From a virus, in IMG/VR virus record IMGVR_UViG_3300025889_000287, positions 1 to 40,062 of that record: a stretch of 40,062 bases of DNA, one strand, 5' to 3'. How positions within the stretch are numbered: position 1 is the stretch's first letter; each line of letters opens with the position of its first letter. Positions 3,306-40,062 of the stretch are shown piece after piece. A model generated the notes under the pieces. The model was not told the DNA's origin, did no database searches, and saw only the letters and a program-made list of their open reading frames with translations. Made by a program: the position numbers and the translations under genes.

Positions 3306-3920
3306 TTGAATTATTTAGAATTAAGTCAAAGCAAATGGCAGGAAGTAAAGGCCAAGTTATCCGCTTACATCAAGAGTGGTATGCTACCCAAGGCAGTTAA
3401 CACTCCTGAGAAGGCTATGCTGATAGCGGCTAAAGGTGCAGAGCTTGGATTGTCGCCAGTATATTCTTTGACTCATATTAACGTCATTCAGGGGAAACCT
3501 ACCATTTCATCAGAGCTGATGCTTTCGTTGGCTCTGAAGAGATGCCCAGATATGGAGATTATATATGAGCAACACAATACGGAAGGATGCAAGATTAAGG
3601 CTCGTCGATCTAAAGACTCCAAATTGTCGGAGTTTAGCTTCACAATCGAAGATGCTAAAAGAGCAGGTCTATCGTCAAAAGATAACTGGAGAAACTATCC
3701 CCAAGATATGTGCAGAAACAGAGCGATTAGCCAAATGTGCAGAGCATTGTTCCCAGATGCTATTGCAGGATGCAGCTACACTCCTGAAGAACTTGAAGGA
3801 AGTAGCGACAAAGCTCAAATTAGAGAAATAGAGCAAGACTTTGAAGCAGTAGAAGTTAAGCAAAGTGTTATCGAAGAAAAATTGCAGGAGTCATTAGACG
3901 CTGCAAATATTGTAGAATAG
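3306..3920 (+). CDS. recT: RecT-family single-strand annealing protein
   Basis: A 204-aa RecT-type annealase. The family core is clear: PEKAMLIAAKGAELGLSPV (ligand-independent helix-turn region) near residues 35-53, then INVIQGKPTISSELMLSLA, a beta-rich middle, and the helical FTIEDAKRAGL ... NWRNYPQDMCRNRAISQMCR segment with YTPEEL near residue 160. It anneals complementary single strands exposed by the neighbouring exonuclease. Start is TTG, supported by a strong GGAGG 6 nt upstream. The C-terminal 40 residues are acidic and probably disordered, a possible SSB or partner contact region. Part of an exonuclease-annealase-SSB operon. Confidence 0.9.
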   Translation: MNYLELSQSKWQEVKAKLSAYIKSGMLPKAVNTPEKAMLIAAKGAELGLSPVYSLTHINVIQGKPTISSELMLSLALKRCPDMEIIYEQHNTEGCKIKARRSKDSKLSEFSFTIEDAKRAGLSSKDNWRNYPQDMCRNRAISQMCRALFPDAIAGCSYTPEELEGSSDKAQIREIEQDFEAVEVKQSVIEEKLQESLDAANIVE

Positions 3921-3929
3921 GAAGGTATA

Positions 3930-4340
3930 ATGAAAGACATTAACAAAATGATTTTAGTGGGAAAGATTGCCGCAGAACCAGAGTATCTAACAAGCAAGGG
4001 AGGGAAAGCCTATGCGAAGTTTAAAATCAAAGTGTCGTCTGTCACTGGCCGAGACAATTCAGGAAAGCTTAAATTTGAAACAGTCTGGCTTAATAGCGTC
4101 TGTTTTGGAAAAACGGCAGAATTCATGCAAAAAATGGAAGTCCAAGAGAAAGACAGGGTTTACCTTGAGGGCAGGTTTTCAGTATCGGCTTATGATGGAA
4201 ACGATGGGAAAAAGAGATATTGGCAGCAGGTTATTTGCGACGAGGTTGTGCCATTAAAAGAGAAAAAAGAAGAAGTTTTAGATTCTCCTGAAGGCTTTAG
4301 TGATGACTTCGCCCAATCAGAAGACGATCTCCCATTCTAA
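3930..4340 (+). CDS. ssb: Single-stranded DNA-binding protein
   Basis: A 136-aa SSB with an OB-fold of about 105 residues: an N-terminal MNxxxLVGKIAxEPE-like strand pattern, then KFKIKVSSV, and a later YLEGRFSVSAYDG...YWQQVICDEV. The acidic tail ends in DDLPF, the standard SSB tip that recruits other replication and repair proteins. It binds single strands during phage replication and recombination. AGGAAGG precedes the ATG. Its last 38 nt overlap the start of a small CXXC gene in another frame. Confidence 0.9.
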   Translation: MKDINKMILVGKIAAEPEYLTSKGGKAYAKFKIKVSSVTGRDNSGKLKFETVWLNSVCFGKTAEFMQKMEVQEKDRVYLEGRFSVSAYDGNDGKKRYWQQVICDEVVPLKEKKEEVLDSPEGFSDDFAQSEDDLPF

Positions 4341-4476
4341 GGATCTTTGCTATTGGTGTGCTAAGTACACTCAGACCATGAGTGACGATACCAAGATTCC
4401 TTGGTGTCAAGCTTGTGCGGCAAAATGGAAGAAGGAATATCCAGATGGCGATAAGCATAGCATCGAGGAAGGCTAA
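4303..4476 (+). CDS. Small CXXC protein overlapping ssb
   Basis: A 57-aa reading frame starting at ATG 4303 inside the ssb tail and ending 32 nt into the next gene. It holds CYWC (residues 16-19) and CQAC (35-38), a two-pair arrangement expected for one zinc ion, and a charged C-terminus. The initiation site is weak (AAGG). The case for it rests on the neat zinc-ribbon pattern in otherwise non-coding space between ssb and the PDDEXK gene, and on the many similar proteins in this window. Function unknown. Confidence 0.6.
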   Translation: MTSPNQKTISHSKDLCYWCAKYTQTMSDDTKIPWCQACAAKWKKEYPDGDKHSIEEG

Positions 4477-4990
4477 GGGCAGAAAAGCAGCCATAGAGTC
4501 AAGAGATGTGCTTTTAAAGTACGATAAGGAACTTGAACTAGGCGATGCTGTTGTTACCTCTAGCGGAGACAATGGCCCAGATATAAAGCTTTCGCCAAGA
4601 GCAGAGAAAAGCTACCCACTAGCTATAGAGGTTAAGTTTCAAGAAACACTCTCACCTATGAAGTGGTACAAGCAAGCGCAGGATCACCTCTATTGGTACA
4701 AGGATGACAAGTGGAGGATACCAGTGGTCGCGTTTCGTAAGTCCAGAACAAAGATGATGGCCTTACTTGGATGGGATGACTTCATACATCTTTTAAGAAG
4801 AGAACATAAACATAAGAAATATGACAAATGTAATTGTCAGAAGGAACCAGAAAAAAAATGGAACTCGCAAGAATCTCTTACCTCTCAGGAACTCCAAGAG
4901 AACAATGGATCAAATCAGCCAAGCTCAGAGTGGGAGAGCCATATAATAGATCAACTACTGAAGGAAAAAGCACAGTCTACGGACACTTAG
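4445..4990 (+). CDS. PDDEXK-type nuclease, putative recombination endonuclease
   Basis: A 181-aa protein. Residues 14-70 carry RDVLLKYD, SSGDNGPDIKLSP and AIEVKFQ, giving the conserved Glu/Asp ... Asp ... Glu-x-Lys order of RecB/VRR-NUC-like PDDEXK nucleases; a later WYKQAQDHLYWYKDD segment matches the Q-containing helix of that fold. Phage enzymes of this type cut branched or end-containing DNA. Start at ATG 4445 follows AAGGAA; an upstream in-frame ATG at 4382 lies inside the CXXC gene. The C-terminal 45 residues are Ser/Glu/Gln-rich, probably disordered, and overlap the next gene by 133 nt. Confidence 0.7.
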   Translation: MAISIASRKAKGRKAAIESRDVLLKYDKELELGDAVVTSSGDNGPDIKLSPRAEKSYPLAIEVKFQETLSPMKWYKQAQDHLYWYKDDKWRIPVVAFRKSRTKMMALLGWDDFIHLLRREHKHKKYDKCNCQKEPEKKWNSQESLTSQELQENNGSNQPSSEWESHIIDQLLKEKAQSTDT

Positions 4991-5376
4991 GGGAGATAAT
5001 CTTTGCCCACCATTATCCAGATTGGAAGTACCTACCTACCTATGATTATGACTTCCAGAAGGATTGCCAGACTGTTGACGTTAAAACAAACTCTTCAAAC
5101 TACCCACCAAGGCATGACCATGACTTTTGTCTCTCATACACAAAACCATTGAAAGCAGACTTCTATTATTTCATTTCAGTATTAAGAGATTTTAGTGCCT
5201 ATTGGCTTATTGGATGCTCAACTCTTGAGGAAGTTCTCTCGTCTGAGATGGTCAAGAAGGGATCTCCAATGCCTCAAGGTGGAACTTGGAAGGCCGATGG
5301 GTACAAGGTCTTATGCAAGCACATGAGGCCAATCCTGCACTCAAAAATAACTAACAACGAAGGATTAAAGGAGTAG
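4858..5376 (+). CDS. Second PDDEXK-like protein, putative endonuclease
   Basis: A 172-aa protein. Its centre contains YGHLGEIIFAHHYPD, then YDYDFQ and TVDVKTNSS, which fit the Glu ... Asp-x-Lys order of a restriction-endonuclease-like fold; the later YYFISV strand and YWLIGC strand fit the same core. Substrate is unknown. The start could be the TTG at 4834 or ATG 4858; the latter is chosen, and in either case the 5' part overlaps the preceding nuclease gene in another frame. The stop is two nt from the next start, which has AAGGAG. A repair, resolving or anti-host role are all possible. Confidence 0.6.
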   Translation: MELARISYLSGTPREQWIKSAKLRVGEPYNRSTTEGKSTVYGHLGEIIFAHHYPDWKYLPTYDYDFQKDCQTVDVKTNSSNYPPRHDHDFCLSYTKPLKADFYYFISVLRDFSAYWLIGCSTLEEVLSSEMVKKGSPMPQGGTWKADGYKVLCKHMRPILHSKITNNEGLKE

Positions 5377-5378
5377 AT

Positions 5379-5561
5379 ATGAATAACAAAGGCGAAGTGA
5401 CATTATTTTTAGGCTTTATGATATTTGTTTTTGGGGCAATCGTTGGCTCTGTTGCAGAGATTGAGGAACAAAATAAAGTTCAAAGCAAAAAGAAAGTGTG
5501 CCACTATCATGTCAATGCAAGACACGAATACCGATGCACAAGATACACAAGAAAAAGATAA
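5379..5561 (+). CDS. Small single-span membrane protein
   Basis: A 60-aa protein with one membrane segment (residues about 8-27, TLFLGFMIFVFGAIVGSVA) and a basic C-terminal tail rich in Lys, Arg, His and Cys. AAGGAG gives a clear ribosome site. Its last 53 nt overlap the next CXXC gene in another frame. The topology (membrane anchor, then basic tail) resembles small phage inner-membrane proteins of several kinds; no family is recognised. Confidence 0.6.
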   Translation: MNNKGEVTLFLGFMIFVFGAIVGSVAEIEEQNKVQSKKKVCHYHVNARHEYRCTRYTRKR

Positions 5562-5688
5562 GGATGAAGGGTTAATTCCAGACGCTAACAGGACCATGTG
5601 CGATCACGTTAGATTGTGCGATGACTGTAAAGGTAAATTCTGGACCATTCATGAGTCCAAGTGCATGGCCTGTAGAGACACTATTTAA
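5509..5688 (+). CDS. Small CXXC protein at the end of the early operon
   Basis: A 59-aa protein. The first 28 residues are acidic and disordered-looking, the rest contains C-x5-C-x2-C (residues 31-40) and CMAC (52-55), a likely single-zinc site. The start is uncertain: ATG 5509 or 5515, neither with a good ribosome site, so coupling to the overlapping membrane-protein gene is likely. Its stop overlaps the end of the convergent late operon by 8 nt, so the early and late transcripts meet here with no terminator visible. Confidence 0.55.
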   Translation: MSMQDTNTDAQDTQEKDKDEGLIPDANRTMCDHVRLCDDCKGKFWTIHESKCMACRDTI

Positions 5689-5899
5689 AGCCTTTAACTA
5701 TCTCAAGAACAACCATTACTGCAAAACCAGCAATTCCACCTGCTACGCTGGCCTTAGTCTTAAATACTAATAGTTCTTTTTCCAGTCCTATTAGCTTTTC
5801 CATAATGCTATCTAACTTAACATCAAGATTCTCCACGTTTCTATCGTTTCTCTTTAATTCAGCCAAAACGTGCTTACTCCACTCATTCCAATCACTCAT
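5681..5899 (-). CDS. XhlA-like coiled-coil membrane protein, lysis-associated
   Basis: A 72-aa protein with an N-terminal helical, heptad-like region (residues 5-48, including NVENLDVKLDSIMEKLIGLEK) and a C-terminal membrane segment (about 50-68, VAGGIAGFAVMVVLEIV). This layout matches the XhlA/hemolysin-like accessory proteins found in phage lysis cassettes, which sit at the membrane with their coil in the cytoplasm. The longer open frame to 6007 is overlap with the GAF gene; ATG 5899 is used, overlapping the GAF stop (ATGAGTGA). Last gene of the leftward late block. Confidence 0.6.
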   Translation of the reverse strand: MSDWNEWSKHVLAELKRNDRNVENLDVKLDSIMEKLIGLEKELLVFKTKASVAGGIAGFAVMVVLEIVKGFK

Positions 5900-6539
5900 A
5901 TCTAATATCCTTTTTTGGTGGAAAATTAGAGCAAGTAACATTGTGACACCCCAGTTTTTCCTTGATGGCTTTCTGATAACCATAAATAAAGGTAGATATT
6001 GAGTCATTAAGAGGCTTCAGCCCATCTACATCAGACAAATTATAGCCATCAGGCTTATTAGCCACACCAAACATACCAATCATTTTATCATTAAAAATCA
6101 ATGGCATACCTAGATATGCGTTTAAAGGAGGATGTCCGTTAGGAATACCTGCTGAGTATTTATGATTTGACGGATCGTTAGTCATTACGATCTCGCTAGT
6201 AGCCAAAGTTCGCCCAAACAGAGAATTTAAGTTATAAAACTCTAAGCCTTTAGGGGCATTGTCAGAATAAAATTTTCTAGTCTCATCATTCCAAGCAATA
6301 TTAGTTATTGCGAAGGTTTTTAAATATGGATTGCCGTCAGAATCATGACGCACCTCTCCAATAAACCCATATTCAGATTTGGTGTGTTTAAGCAATATTT
6401 CTAAAAATAAATCAAAAGCTTTTGTGTAAGATTGTTCTTTTACAAAAACCAATTGAGCCTTGAGAATAGACTCGATTAGATAATCTTTTGCAATTAAAGA
6501 TTCTGTTAGCTTAGAGAGCTTATTGAGGCTAGATTCAAT
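5892..6539 (-). CDS. GAF-domain protein, probable AUU start
   Basis: A 215-aa protein if it starts at ATT 6539. Residues about 35-190 form a GAF domain of the subtype seen in bacterial signalling receptors: SEYGFIGEV, PYLKTFAITNIAWNDETR, GLEFYNLNSLFG, VMTNDPSNH, GHPPLNAYLGMPL and MIGMFGVANKPDGY. GAF domains bind small ligands or partners. A TTG at 6452 is the first conventional start, but it would remove 29 residues of normal GAF lead-in helix. The frame is closed by TAG just upstream of ATT, ATT is preceded by AGGAAGAGG, and ATT shares one base with the previous stop (ATTGA). It has no output domain visible and sits in the lysis cassette. Confidence 0.75.
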   Translation of the reverse strand: MESSLNKLSKLTESLIAKDYLIESILKAQLVFVKEQSYTKAFDLFLEILLKHTKSEYGFIGEVRHDSDGNPYLKTFAITNIAWNDETRKFYSDNAPKGLEFYNLNSLFGRTLATSEIVMTNDPSNHKYSAGIPNGHPPLNAYLGMPLIFNDKMIGMFGVANKPDGYNLSDVDGLKPLNDSISTFIYGYQKAIKEKLGCHNVTCSNFPPKKDIRYE

Positions 6540-22000: not shown

Positions 22001-22642
22001 TTAGGTTCTTTTTTTGAGTGCCTTAACCTGATCTATGAAACTCATGGCAGGTTGTTCTGGCGTTTTAGGCTGCGATTGTGTCTGACTTGACCCCAAAGAA
22101 GTCGCTTGACCACTTTGAAGCTCGGTTCTAGCCACAGAAGCATCCTTAACACCACCCATTATACCACGCGCTTCATCTACCAGAAGTTTTTTTGCTTCAG
22201 CAACCTTCCCTTGACCATATAAGGACTCAAGATGCTGCCTTTTATCTTTTACCAGTAAATCCACTAATCTTTTATGTTTTTTTAGATCAGGGTTTTCACC
22301 GTAAAATTCACCCCAAAACTTTGACTCCTCATCTCTACGGCTAAACTCAGTGGTTAGCTCGTTTCTGACATCGGATCTTAGCTTCTGAATGAACTGTTTG
22401 GGATTGCTAAACATGAGGTCTTCATAATCTACTTCAGGCTCATGTTGTTGATATTGCTGGTATTGTTGAGCAGGTTGGGCAGGTTGACTCCATTGTTGTT
22501 GTGGAGCTTGTTGCTGCTGATATTGCTGATAAACCTCTTGAGGAGACTGCTCTCCAGCATCAGGACTATTAAATGGCTCTGCCCCTGCTTCTGGTTGTAC
22601 TCCATCCAAGGGGCCACCTTGCATTGCATCTGTATCACTCAT
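22001..22642 (-). CDS. Scaffolding protein
   Basis: A 213-aa protein placed between portal and capsid. Residues 30-70 are Gln-rich and disordered (YQQYQQQQAPQQQ type), residues 75-165 are charged and helical, and the C-terminus ends in a basic helix (FIDQVKALKKRT), the feature by which scaffolds grip the coat protein. It directs capsid assembly and is then removed. Assignment rests on composition, size and position. Confidence 0.7.
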   Translation of the reverse strand: MSDTDAMQGGPLDGVQPEAGAEPFNSPDAGEQSPQEVYQQYQQQQAPQQQWSQPAQPAQQYQQYQQHEPEVDYEDLMFSNPKQFIQKLRSDVRNELTTEFSRRDEESKFWGEFYGENPDLKKHKRLVDLLVKDKRQHLESLYGQGKVAEAKKLLVDEARGIMGGVKDASVARTELQSGQATSLGSSQTQSQPKTPEQPAMSFIDQVKALKKRT

Positions 22643-36916: not shown

Positions 36917-37270
36917 ATGAGAGTCCCTAAATCACACTTTATTGGAAAAAAGATATTGTTGAGTTGTTCGCTATGGGATTACCCAGTTGAGGGTATCATT
37001 ATAGAGCTGTTAAAGGAGCCAATTGGGTATCCGACCGAAGTGCTTTTGTATGGTTTTCAAATAGAGTCAGGAGAGGTCTTTTGGATACCTGTGGGTGACG
37101 CCATGATTAGAGTCCTAGACAACAAGCCAAAGCTAAGAATAGCCCCTGTTGTAGAGCTTAGACCTAAGACTAAGGCTAGGACTAGGGTAAAGACTAAAGG
37201 TAAGACTAAGGCAAAGACTAGGACTAAGACGAGAGCTAGGACTAAGACTAAGACTAGAGCCAAAAAATAG
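36917..37270 (+). CDS. Protein with beta domain and repetitive Lys/Thr/Arg tail
   Basis: A 117-aa protein. Residues 1-75 are a compact beta-rich domain (IGKKILLSCSLWDYPVEGIIIELL ... EVFWIPVGDAMIRVL). Residues 83-117 are an almost regular Lys/Arg-Thr-Lys/Arg-Ala/Thr repeat (KTKARTRVKTKGKTKAKTRT...), like histone H1-type or Hc-type tails. The repeat is written in degenerate hexamer DNA of the GACTAAG type. It probably binds nucleic acid through the tail. The start follows a TACAAT box with no ribosome site, so a leaderless message is likely. Confidence 0.6.
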   Translation: MRVPKSHFIGKKILLSCSLWDYPVEGIIIELLKEPIGYPTEVLLYGFQIESGEVFWIPVGDAMIRVLDNKPKLRIAPVVELRPKTKARTRVKTKGKTKAKTRTKTRARTKTKTRAKK

Positions 37271-37874
37271 CCCATTTTCTAACGCAAACCTGAAAAACGA
37301 CGTAAAGGCCCCTACAATCAATTTTCACAGAAAACCTATACCTGCGCCTAGGTACACCCCCCAAAATGGATTCTACCCACCAAAGAATGCTTTCTAGGCT
37401 ATGCGCGCTCGACTCTCACAACCGAATTTCCCCATATGGGGACAGAACACAGTCTAGCATAACTTCTAAAACTAATATATTACTTATAAATATATATATA
37501 GATCAGTATAGTAATATATTGACTAACTGAGTCGGAACTCAAAATCGCATAGTCGGCTGAGAGAGGGAATAGAAATTGATCAAGGGGTGTGCAGCCATAG
37601 CTAGGGGGTCCCCCTTAGCACTGTTAATAATATATTAACTAACTGTGTATGCCCCTAGACTCACAGTGTTATTTTGTGGGGGGGATATTGTTCTAAATAA
37701 ATTATTAATACCCTCCCCTGTTATATATAATACTATTAATAATACATAACACTATGAATAGTTATACTGTAACAGATAGTATACTGATTCAATCGGTTAA
37801 CGCTAGTTTAACCTGATACTATATTCAGTAATCCCAAGTATATTATTCCAGTGATAAGCACTTGTATAAATCGG
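37271..37874. other. Non-coding AT-rich region with palindromes and repeats
   Basis: About 600 nt with no gene I can support. It contains the perfect palindrome CCCCATATGGGG (37430-37441), the near-palindrome GCTAGGGGGTCCCCCTTAGC (37600-37619), a 7+3+7 palindrome GTTAATA-ATA-TATTAAC (37623-37639), three TAATATATT copies, a longer repeat (37512-37532 and 37628-37648), and GGTTAA/TTAACC (37795-37813). AT-rich clusters with dyads and direct repeats are the usual make-up of replication origins or regulatory islands. Confidence 0.5.
37512..37648 (+). repeat. Direct repeat TAATATATTxACTAACTGxGT
   Basis: Two copies, 37512-37532 and 37628-37648, are identical at 19 of 21 positions and 116 bp apart. 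A shorter third copy of TAATATATT is at 37473-37481. They could be iterons or regulator sites. Confidence 0.5.
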
Positions 37875-38024
37875 TCAATAATAATCATCGTCCCACTCCT
37901 CAATGGGCTTTAGACGCTGCCCAAAACAGTTAATAAAAGCAGCGCAATATGGACAGTGAAGCTCGCTGCGCCCCTTTGTGTGGGCCGTGATATTACCCTC
38001 GCAACAACTACAAATAATCTCCAT
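37875..38024 (-). CDS. 49-aa CXXC micro-protein
   Basis: A 49-aa frame: CSCC (residues 5-8), CPYC (24-27) and a further Cys at 33, then an acidic end (EEWDDDYY). The four paired cysteines give a clear zinc-ribbon. A weak GAGTGAG precedes the ATG. It is the only supportable gene in the 1.3-kb region before the rightward micro-gene chain and is transcribed leftward. Confidence 0.55.
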   Translation of the reverse strand: MEIICSCCEGNITAHTKGRSELHCPYCAAFINCFGQRLKPIEEWDDDYY

Positions 38025-38486
38025 TACTCACTCTCTTTTATCAGCTCATGTTTCCTGTTTACTTGACCTAATAGTCTTACTTTGTTTGTCATGCGCCCTA
38101 AGTAAACAATGGCCCTAAGCTTGTCAATCTTTTATTTTAAACTTTTTTATCTTTTTTTTAGCCTAGCACTTTGCTCTAATATTTACCCTACTATTTCAGT
38201 AAGGCTCTACGCTCCCTCATGGTGTCACTTTGCCAATTACTTGACTAATGTAGTCCTATGCCTTGAGCCTAGAAAAACCCTATTAGTTAACTTATGGCTT
38301 ATAATAAGTCAACTAAAAAAATAGGCCTTTTAAAGCGTTTTCATTAGTTGACTAGGGTCTAGGTATAGGTTGACTCCTATAAACTCAATAGCGGCGATTT
38401 TCGGCTATTCCCTACAGTGATTATGCGTAAGTTTGATGAAGTTTTATTAATAATTAAAAAAAATGATTTTAGTATAAAAAAAAGTC

Positions 38487-38515
38487 TTGACGCATCAATT
38501 GACGCGGTATATTAA
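38487..38515 (+). promoter_or_regulatory. Promoter for the rightward micro-gene chain
   Basis: TTGACG (38487-38492), 17-nt spacer, TATTAA (38510-38515). A second TTGACGC copy at 38499-38505 lies inside the spacer. Start near 38522, then the dyad at 38528-38546 and an AGGAGA ribosome site before ATG 38563. Confidence 0.45.
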
Positions 38516-38527
38516 TGCACCAAGTTA

Positions 38528-38546
38528 TCTAACGCATAATGTTAGA
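38528..38546. repeat. Dyad TCTAAC-7-GTTAGA in the leader, operator candidate
   Basis: Exact 6-bp arms with spacer GCATAAT, between the predicted start and the ribosome site. Two ACGCATA copies overlap its edges. Position suits an operator. Confidence 0.4.
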
Positions 38547-38562
38547 CGCATAGGAGATAGCA

Positions 38563-38718
38563 ATGGTCACACTAAACACTCAGAGCGGTAAAAAATTGGT
38601 AATCAGGGAACAATATGACGATCTTTTTACTTTCCTAAAGATTGTTAGGGATTTAAGCCTAGGCACTATTGCCTTACTAATTCCCTTTGTTTTATTTGCT
38701 CTAAGCCTAATTAAGTAA
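38563..38718 (+). CDS. 51-aa tail-anchored membrane micro-protein
   Basis: A 51-aa protein with a charged N-terminal half (QSGKKLVIREQYDDLFTFL) and a C-terminal membrane segment (residues about 33-50, GTIALLIPFVLFALSLI). AGGAGA precedes ATG 38563. The layout is of a small tail-anchored inner-membrane protein. It opens the micro-gene group at the right end; function unknown. Confidence 0.65.
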   Translation: MVTLNTQSGKKLVIREQYDDLFTFLKIVRDLSLGTIALLIPFVLFALSLIK

Positions 38719-38726
38719 ACAACCAC

Positions 38727-38755
38727 TTGACAGGACACTAGCAAGAAGGGATAAG
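38727..38755 (+). promoter_or_regulatory. Second promoter in the micro-gene chain
   Basis: TTGACA, the consensus -35, at 38727-38732, a 17-nt spacer and GATAAG (38750-38755). The next ATG (38762) lies 6 nt after the -10 box, again a leaderless-type placement, although AAGGGAT also lies upstream of this ATG. Confidence 0.45.
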
Positions 38756-38761
38756 AGCGTT

Positions 38762-38839
38762 ATGCTAAATTTATACTTTGAAAGCTTGGCCTTATGGTTA
38801 GGCTTAGGAGCATTTCTAACAATTGGCGGCCTACTATGA
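38762..38839 (+). CDS. 25-aa hydrophobic micro-protein
   Basis: A 25-aa frame that is nearly all membrane segment (ESLALWLGLGAFLTIGGLL). Its stop overlaps the next ATG in ATGA. Support comes from the placement just after a good promoter and the exact coupling to the next frame; length alone gives none. Confidence 0.5.
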   Translation: MLNLYFESLALWLGLGAFLTIGGLL

Positions 38840-38940
38840 GGTGGGACCTTACGCACCTAAGAGAGTCAATCTTGATTATATTAGTCGCTTTATGCGTCTT
38901 GATCTATTCATGGGTGACCTTCGAAAAGGGATTTTTATGA
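38836..38940 (+). CDS. 34-aa single-span membrane micro-protein
   Basis: A 34-aa frame with a charged N-terminus (RWDLTHLRES), one membrane segment (ILIILVALCVLIYSWV, residues 12-27) and a short charged end. It starts in an ATGA overlap with the 25-aa gene and stops in an ATGA overlap with the CXXC gene. No ribosome site, consistent with reinitiation. Another frame here, 38823-39095, is longer but would need a TTG start within the hydrophobic gene. Confidence 0.55.
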   Translation: MRWDLTHLRESILIILVALCVLIYSWVTFEKGFL

Positions 38941-39095
38941 TATTCGAGCATGGGGATAAAACAACGTGTTGCGACGTTTGTTGGAGAGATTCCACCATTA
39001 CGCCTATAGCTATACTAGAGGGTGAGAACCTTTGTCGTATCTGTGTATTTCTCCAGTTTGAGGAATTCATAGGCAGAGAACCCCAAAAGGATTAA
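38937..39095 (+). CDS. 52-aa CXXC micro-protein
   Basis: A 52-aa protein with CCDVC (residues 11-15) and CRIC (33-36), a two-pair zinc site separated by a beta-hairpin-like segment, and a charged C-terminus. ATG 38937 is preferred because it lies in the ATGA overlap with the 34-aa gene and has AAGGG upstream. It ends the chain and is followed by a terminator-like sequence. Confidence 0.6.
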   Translation: MIFEHGDKTTCCDVCWRDSTITPIAILEGENLCRICVFLQFEEFIGREPQKD

Positions 39096-39111: not shown

Positions 39112-39132
39112 AGTTTATTTTAAACTTTTTTT
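39112..39132 (+). terminator. Weak AT-rich terminator
   Basis: AGTTTA-TTT-TAAACT hairpin (39112-39126) followed by six T. The stem has only A-U and two G-C pairs, so efficiency is likely low. It separates the micro-gene chain from the DUF932 gene. Confidence 0.45.
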
Positions 39133-39182: not shown

Positions 39183-40062
39183 ATGGCGCACGAAATTGAA
39201 AGCATGATGTTTGTTGGGGATACCCCATGGCATGGACTAGGGACACGATTTGTTGAACCGCCAAGTCTTGATGAGGCAATGGTAGCATCAGGGCTTGACT
39301 GGGAGGTTACCACGAATCCTGTTTTCGACCATTGGAGAGATGAAATACCTGATAAGTACTCCATAACAAGGAAGGTCAAGGTTGAGGGTGGAATTTTAGG
39401 AGAAGAAAAGCTTGTTCACCTTGGGATTGTAGGTGGAAGATATGAGCCACTGCAAAACGTTGACGCGTTTCGATGGTTCGAACCCTTCATCAATGAGGGA
39501 CTAGCAAGTATCGAGACCGCAGCAAGTCTAAGGCATGGTCAACGCGTTTTTGTTTTAGCTAAGATTAACGGCGCGCCGGATATAATTGGCGGTGATGATG
39601 AGGTATCAAGATATATTTTGTTATCAAATAGTCACGACGGCAAGCAAAGTGTCAGGGCAGGATTCACTCCTATTAGAGTAGTTTGCTCAAACACACTAGC
39701 GTGGGCCATTAGAGACAAGTCAAGCTCACTGATTCGCGTTAATCATAGCAAGTCAGTATATGACAACCTAGAGGCTCTACGCGAGACAATGAACCTAGCG
39801 AGTCAACAATTTGAGGCTAATGCGGAGCAATTCCGATGGTTAGCTTCTATACCGATCACCTCTGGGGACCTAAAGGAATACATCAAAGTATCCCTTGAGC
39901 TTCAAACGTCATTGAAAGCCAATGGCGACGAAAGAGAAAACCATGCTTTAAATAAGGTAATCAGCCTTTTTGAGAGCGGAAGGGGTTCCGACCTTGCAAC
40001 GGCAAAAGGTACTTATTGGGGCGCGTATAATGCCGTCAATGAGTATCTAGGATACTTCCAAG
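39183..40062 (+). CDS. DUF932 phage/plasmid-like protein, C-terminus cut by window edge
   Basis: 293 residues are present and the frame is open at the end. It starts MAHEIESMMFVGDTPWHGLG, the hallmark of the DUF932 (TIGR03299) family, followed by YEPLQNVDAFRWFEPF, SLRHGQRVFVLAKING, YILLSNSHDGKQSVRAGFTPIRVVCSNTLAWA and WGAYNAVNEYLGYF. Family members are frequent in phages and plasmids; their biochemical role is not established. AAGGGA lies before the ATG. Only the last few tens of residues should be missing. Confidence 0.85.
   Translation, partial: MAHEIESMMFVGDTPWHGLGTRFVEPPSLDEAMVASGLDWEVTTNPVFDHWRDEIPDKYSITRKVKVEGGILGEEKLVHLGIVGGRYEPLQNVDAFRWFEPFINEGLASIETAASLRHGQRVFVLAKINGAPDIIGGDDEVSRYILLSNSHDGKQSVRAGFTPIRVVCSNTLAWAIRDKSSSLIRVNHSKSVYDNLEALRETMNLASQQFEANAEQFRWLASIPITSGDLKEYIKVSLELQTSLKANGDERENHALNKVISLFESGRGSDLATAKGTYWGAYNAVNEYLGYFQ

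Follow-up and report, generated by a model that had tools for sequence, protein, structure and literature searches.

Is the short stretch ahead of the DUF932 gene at the right end of this phage sequence translated as four micro-genes of 51, 25, 34 and 52 aa, as an earlier note had proposed, or is the last of them the end of a 90-aa frame that replaces its small neighbors, and which role could such products play? The window, i.e. the whole stretch of DNA analysed, is the IMG/VR virus record IMGVR_UViG_3300025889_000287 with 40,062 bases. Genes for podovirus-like head, portal, terminase and internal virion proteins are found on its minus strand. On the plus strand, exonuclease VIII-like, RecT, SSB and RusA-like genes are located at the left end, and at the right end a gene-poor stretch is followed by the four micro-ORFs and the DUF932 gene, which is assigned by Pfam PF06067 (E = 4.6e-51, 174.2 bits against a gathering cut-off of 23) and phrog_1221 (E = 1.1e-58). 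The micro-gene cluster shares its strand block with DUF932 and the recombination genes and runs divergently to the structural genes. A phage and early-side setting is borne out by the adjoining DUF932 gene and by exonuclease, RecT and SSB genes encoded on this strand at the opposite end. The contig is open-ended; if the record is a piece of a circularly mapping genome, its right end would continue into the left-end recombination genes, and the cluster, DUF932 and the RecT, exonuclease and SSB genes would form one operon. The features of the region are as follows.

38487-38515, plus strand: possible early promoter, TTGACG (38487-38492) with TATATT (38508-38513, spacer 15) or TATTAA (38510-38515, spacer 17)
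38528-38546, no strand assigned: dyad TCTAAC-N7-GTTAGA immediately before the ribosome site of the first gene, perhaps an operator or a hairpin in the 5' leader
38551-38557, plus strand: Shine-Dalgarno sequence TAGGAGA of the 51-aa gene, duplex energy -7.3 kcal/mol, spacing 5
38563-38718, plus strand: 51-aa gene, N-terminal half charged, membrane helix C-terminal
38727-38755, plus strand: possible internal promoter TTGACA-17-GATAAG, 5' of the 25-aa gene, from direct reading only
38762-38839, plus strand: 25-aa gene, nearly all one marginal membrane helix, stop overlapping the next start (ATGA)
38823-38936, plus strand: rival N-terminal extension that would yield a 90-aa product starting at TTG, regarded as a shadow of the 34-aa gene
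38836-38940, plus strand: 34-aa gene, one strong membrane helix with charged ends, ATGA overlap at each end
38937-39095, plus strand: 52-aa gene, two CxxC pairs (CDVC, CRIC)
39183-40061, plus strand: DUF932 gene, next gene after the 52-aa gene on the same strand, running off the contig end

Direct reading and translation reproduced all four reading frames exactly, together with the ATGA overlaps at 38836 and 38937 which join the 25-, 34- and 52-aa genes. Overlaps occur at these last two junctions only, the 51- and 25-aa genes being 43 nt apart. ATGA junctions also join larger genes of the same phage, e.g. at 22642, 18472 and 12637. Apparent insertion energies are -1.5 for the 51-aa, 0.07 for the 25-aa and -3.5 for the 34-aa protein, and each of the three fits a single membrane helix in a protein of up to about 60 aa. 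The 52-aa protein is probably zinc-binding and zinc-ribbon- or zinc-finger-like, as judged from its cysteine pairs. It has no match in Pfam or PHROG, and its best PDB sequence match has E = 1.7. The fold model is of low confidence (pLDDT 58.7) and contains a two-strand hairpin at residues 21-38. Under the codon-position model, which was trained on the large genes of this phage, the 52-aa gene scores best in its own frame.

A chain of ORFs of at least 20, 30 and 30 aa joined by two ATGA overlaps was seen in 12% of shuffled 40-kb windows, so that on its own the chain counts for little. More informative is the hydrophobicity of the encoded proteins. Among 1,934 random ATG ORFs of comparable length from second-order Markov shuffles, none reached the value of the 34-aa protein, 0.2% reached that of the 25-aa and 0.3% that of the 51-aa protein. 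The hydrophobicity of the three successive membrane ORFs is not due to chance, and the reading given earlier, in which three membrane micro-proteins precede a double-CxxC protein, remains the best one for the region. These values weigh against the possibility that, of the four, just the 51- and the 52-aa genes are real, with 38719-38936 being an untranslated leader or decaying sequence. The start contexts of these two genes are the better placed ones among the ATG micro-genes, and the frequency of ATGA chains in shuffled windows also speaks for this reading, but it requires chance to have produced two ORFs in a row with helices at the 0.2% and the <0.05% level, which would in addition be in register with a real gene via an ATGA overlap. 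We consider it quite improbable.

Real genes of this phage do contain hydrophobic shadow ORFs, and shadowing was therefore tested directly. The 90-aa frame from TTG 38823 to 39095 exists, as direct reading and translation confirmed. If it encodes the real product, the 34-aa frame would be a hydrophobic shadow, with or without a genuine 25-aa gene. The 34-aa frame is the shift-1 frame of the 90-aa frame, and the latter is the shift-2 frame of the 34-aa frame. Among all 34-codon windows taken from real soluble genes, both of this phage sequence and of related loci, 0.32-0.37% had an open shift-1 shadow with a helix of -3.0 or better; open shift-1 shadow frames as such are frequent in this phage's genes (14%), which speaks for the 90-aa reading. 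Conversely, the shift-2 frame contained no stop in 57 out of 111 true membrane windows. A stop in this frame requires the next codon to begin with AA, AG or GA. Such codons encode charged or polar residues, which explains why the frame tends to stay open beside membrane helices. With codon composition left aside, the likelihood ratio in favor of the 34-aa gene as against the 90-aa extension is near 100.

Codon composition points the other way. The extension has codon-position GC values of 0.55, 0.34 and 0.39, typical of this phage, and a per-codon score equal to that of DUF932, whereas the codon usage of the 34-aa gene is atypical; the codon-position model prefers the 90-aa over the 34-aa frame by 12 bits. 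A wrong-frame preference of at least 10 bits was, however, found in 21% of true membrane windows as compared to 2% of soluble windows, due to the T-rich second positions of membrane genes landing on shift-2 third positions. The TTG has a ribosome site of -6.5 kcal/mol, albeit at the long spacing of 11, whereas the ATG at 38937 possesses its own Shine-Dalgarno-like site, and the extension has no homologue in the searches of DUF932 loci and TerL-relative loci. Taken together, the comparison of frames favours the 25-34-52 arrangement over a 90-aa gene, in agreement with the earlier preference for the 25- and 34-aa genes, with the odds well in favor but short of certainty, and with codon composition alone opposing it. 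A 90-aa product remains an unlikely alternative, although it is the most serious of those considered. Of the individual genes, those of 51 and 52 aa can be taken as very likely real and those of 25 and 34 aa as probably real; that all four micro-genes are translated is a reasonably good expectation. A frameshift fusion of the 25- and 34-aa frames was also considered and dropped, as no slippery heptamer was found near the junction on inspection.

The signals around the cluster gave a less uniform picture. Two promoters had been proposed, but promoter-like sites occur in this region at chance level (7 found, 6.6 expected). Both candidates listed above come from direct reading and are absent from the list of the consensus scan, the internal one because the scan demands T at the last -10 position. 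The dyad proposed as operator-like is present as such, but shuffles of its 83-nt region fold equally well (z = 0.16). The suggested terminator was not supported, as the scan found no terminator-like site and the AT-rich tract 3' of 39095, which folds slightly better than shuffles (z = -1.10), is unconvincing. On a scale of duplex energies where the best 5% of random positions begin at -6.5 kcal/mol, the ribosome site of the 25-aa gene is weak (-5.1 kcal/mol, spacing 9) and that of the 34-aa gene is poor (GGCGGC, -4.8 kcal/mol). The 52-aa gene has AAGGGAT (-5.1 kcal/mol, spacing 4), and DUF932 is preceded by the same weak motif (-5.1 kcal/mol, spacing 5). The 18-mer TTTATTTTAAACTTTTTT is found exactly twice in the window, at 38131-38148 and 39114-39131, flanking the micro-gene cluster. 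At least two matches with up to three mismatches occurred in 4 of 100 shuffles. It could be a shared T-rich regulatory element or the trace of a module exchange.

No convincing homologue of the micro-proteins was found in 50,697 phage records (tblastn up to E = 10, the 25-aa protein not being used as a separate query), in IMG/VR and GTDB genomes, where the scans of viral contigs and genome contigs require an exact 8-residue match, or in PHROGs, Pfam and PDB sequences. Sensitive local tblastn against about 150 DUF932 loci and 85 TerL-relative loci likewise delivered nothing convincing. The match of phrog_4430 to the 51-aa protein (E = 0.085) is too weak. A match to the 52-aa protein in locus L037 (25% identity, E = 0.2) lies within a 76-aa ORF 3' of DUF932 and is treated as a chance match, and a match to the 34-aa protein in L243 is part of a 77-aa membrane ORF and not a micro-gene homologue. 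The micro-proteins are probably new orphans of a known kind, namely small phage early membrane proteins.

Small single-helix proteins also fit pinholin-like or antiholin roles, and no clear lysis gene was found among the window proteins searched. The cluster could accordingly be read as a lysis unit of holin- and antiholin-like membrane proteins instead of an early host-acting set. Against this stand its position in the strand block that holds DUF932 and the recombination genes and diverges from the structural genes, the absence of an endolysin or spanin partner beside the cluster, where the neighbors are DUF932 and a divergent 49-aa gene, and the lack of PHROG lysis-family matches for the micro-proteins. 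A lysis unit is the least credible of these alternatives and very unlikely.

One near-identical contig reaches close to the cluster. G004 (also L020), 99.8% identical, aligns only to window position 38367, about 200 bases short of the cluster, and the near-identical contigs L003 and L004 do not include it. Over the 16 kb compared, G004 and the window are nearly identical, apart from the non-coding stretch 38150-38290, which is visibly different with exact identity on either side. This difference just 5' of the cluster suggests local recombination, as judged from the alignment.

The approximately 150 DUF932 loci with 31-52% identity carry other small genes upstream. Double-CxxC proteins of 71-106 aa are found directly 5' of DUF932 in 8 of 151 loci (L032, L034, L035, L037, L143, L153, L173 and L179), as compared to 11 of 796 control positions. 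They share the position and the two CxxC pairs with the 52-aa protein, but form a separate family with a conserved IQDAMPYL-like middle part that is absent from the latter, so the parallel is positional only. In L030, membrane micro-ORFs of 21 aa (2540-2605) and 39 aa (3817-3936) precede DUF932, the second one directly, each with a ribosome site, and in L031 a 22-aa membrane micro-ORF with a ribosome site is located at 2767-2835 upstream of DUF932. The best exact DUF932 match, L002 (73% over 48 residues), belongs to an unrelated element, in which the upstream region is different and an RNase III-like gene is present. Around this gene, at 3500-5960 and 5' of the DUF932 start, repeated GDVSGL-like peptide motifs occur in both directions.

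Recurrence was examined in relatives by TerL, of which 15 loci include 10 kb of the early side. Shine-Dalgarno-led membrane micro-ORFs of 20-70 aa were found nine times in 120 kb of early strand and not at all in 135 kb antisense to structural genes, a control that gauges the false-positive rate of the criterion and not the rate in late genes. None of those on the early strand is similar in sequence to the genes of the window. In one relative, G006 (IMGVR_UViG_3300020195_000051, 44 kb), the first gene of the early operon is a single-helix ORF of 34 aa that has a ribosome site; 2 nt further on begins a 50-aa ORF, which is joined by an ATGA overlap to a 347-aa gene. It resembles the cluster in the 34-aa single-helix gene followed by a gene of about 50 aa and an ATGA junction; it differs in sequence and in its next large gene, which is ATPase-like (GIGKT motif) and not DUF932. 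The simplest reading is that the lineage repeatedly carries unrelated membrane micro-genes at the early-operon position. DUF932 was not found in the TerL relatives, in a search run without a positive control, so that the empty result shows little; the DUF932 and TerL gene sets probably have separate histories.

The explanation we prefer, with somewhat better than even confidence, is a coupled micro-gene cluster that opens an early-side operon and acts at the host inner membrane. The cluster would open the rightward early-side operon of the podovirus-like phage, ahead of DUF932. Ribosomes would bind at the good site of the 51-aa gene as well as at the weaker ones of the 25- and 52-aa genes. As the 34-aa gene is almost without a ribosome site of its own, its protein is probably made by termination-reinitiation at the ATGA from the 25-aa gene, which would link the amounts of both products. 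The 25- and 34-aa proteins would most likely act as a paired complex, placed in the inner membrane of the host at an early stage of infection, and alter an envelope function or host defence, and the 52-aa protein may serve as a small regulator. Given translation, the chances of an early role at the host membrane appear about even; an envelope or defence role is plausible from position and hydrophobicity. The micro-genes are best read as fast-turnover phage early genes. A more specific conjecture would be a two-part membrane complex of the 25- and 34-aa proteins, held at a fixed ratio by termination-reinitiation and being one of many unrelated micro-complexes swapped at the early-operon starts of this lineage to counter host membrane defences. 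We regard this as distinctly speculative and improbable as a whole.

Parallels to known systems exist for both the proteins and their junctions. A membrane protein of 27 aa inserts into the E. coli membrane, and bacterial membrane proteins of the YohP type with less than 50 aa likewise consist of one helix encoded by a tiny ORF missed by annotation (PMC7549839). The genes of the window differ in being three consecutive members of a phage operon, and in sequence they are unrelated to the known ones. Among prokaryotic gene overlaps ATGA is the most frequent, and short overlaps show an excess of pairs that encode subunits of the same complex (PMC10666635). With known ATGA pairs that use termination-reinitiation (PMC6728339, PMC10666635) the window shares the 4-nt stop-start overlaps, here twice running, and the weak site of the 34-aa gene; its partners are of 25-52 aa instead of ordinary genes, and the coupling is inferred. 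If the cluster is real, phage early operons can begin with a series of genes for membrane proteins below common length limits, and such micro-genes turn over too fast for homology searches to find them. Their recurrence on the early strand of one lineage would allow candidates to be collected by position instead of sequence, for tests on host membrane and defence.

Other small frames were noted in the window. A 72-aa frame on the minus strand at 37057-37275 reads MGYFLALVLVLVLALVLVLVF... with a repeat-like hydrophobic run; it overlaps a 117-aa plus-strand ORF starting at 36917, and the coding strand of the two is ambiguous. The 49-aa protein encoded divergently from the cluster at 37875-38024 on the minus strand is a double-CxxC protein which matches phrog_3207 of unknown function (E = 2.5e-05). 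On the plus strand, following the recombination genes, a 60-aa ORF at 5379-5561 has a strong ribosome site (-8.2 kcal/mol) and an N-terminal membrane helix.
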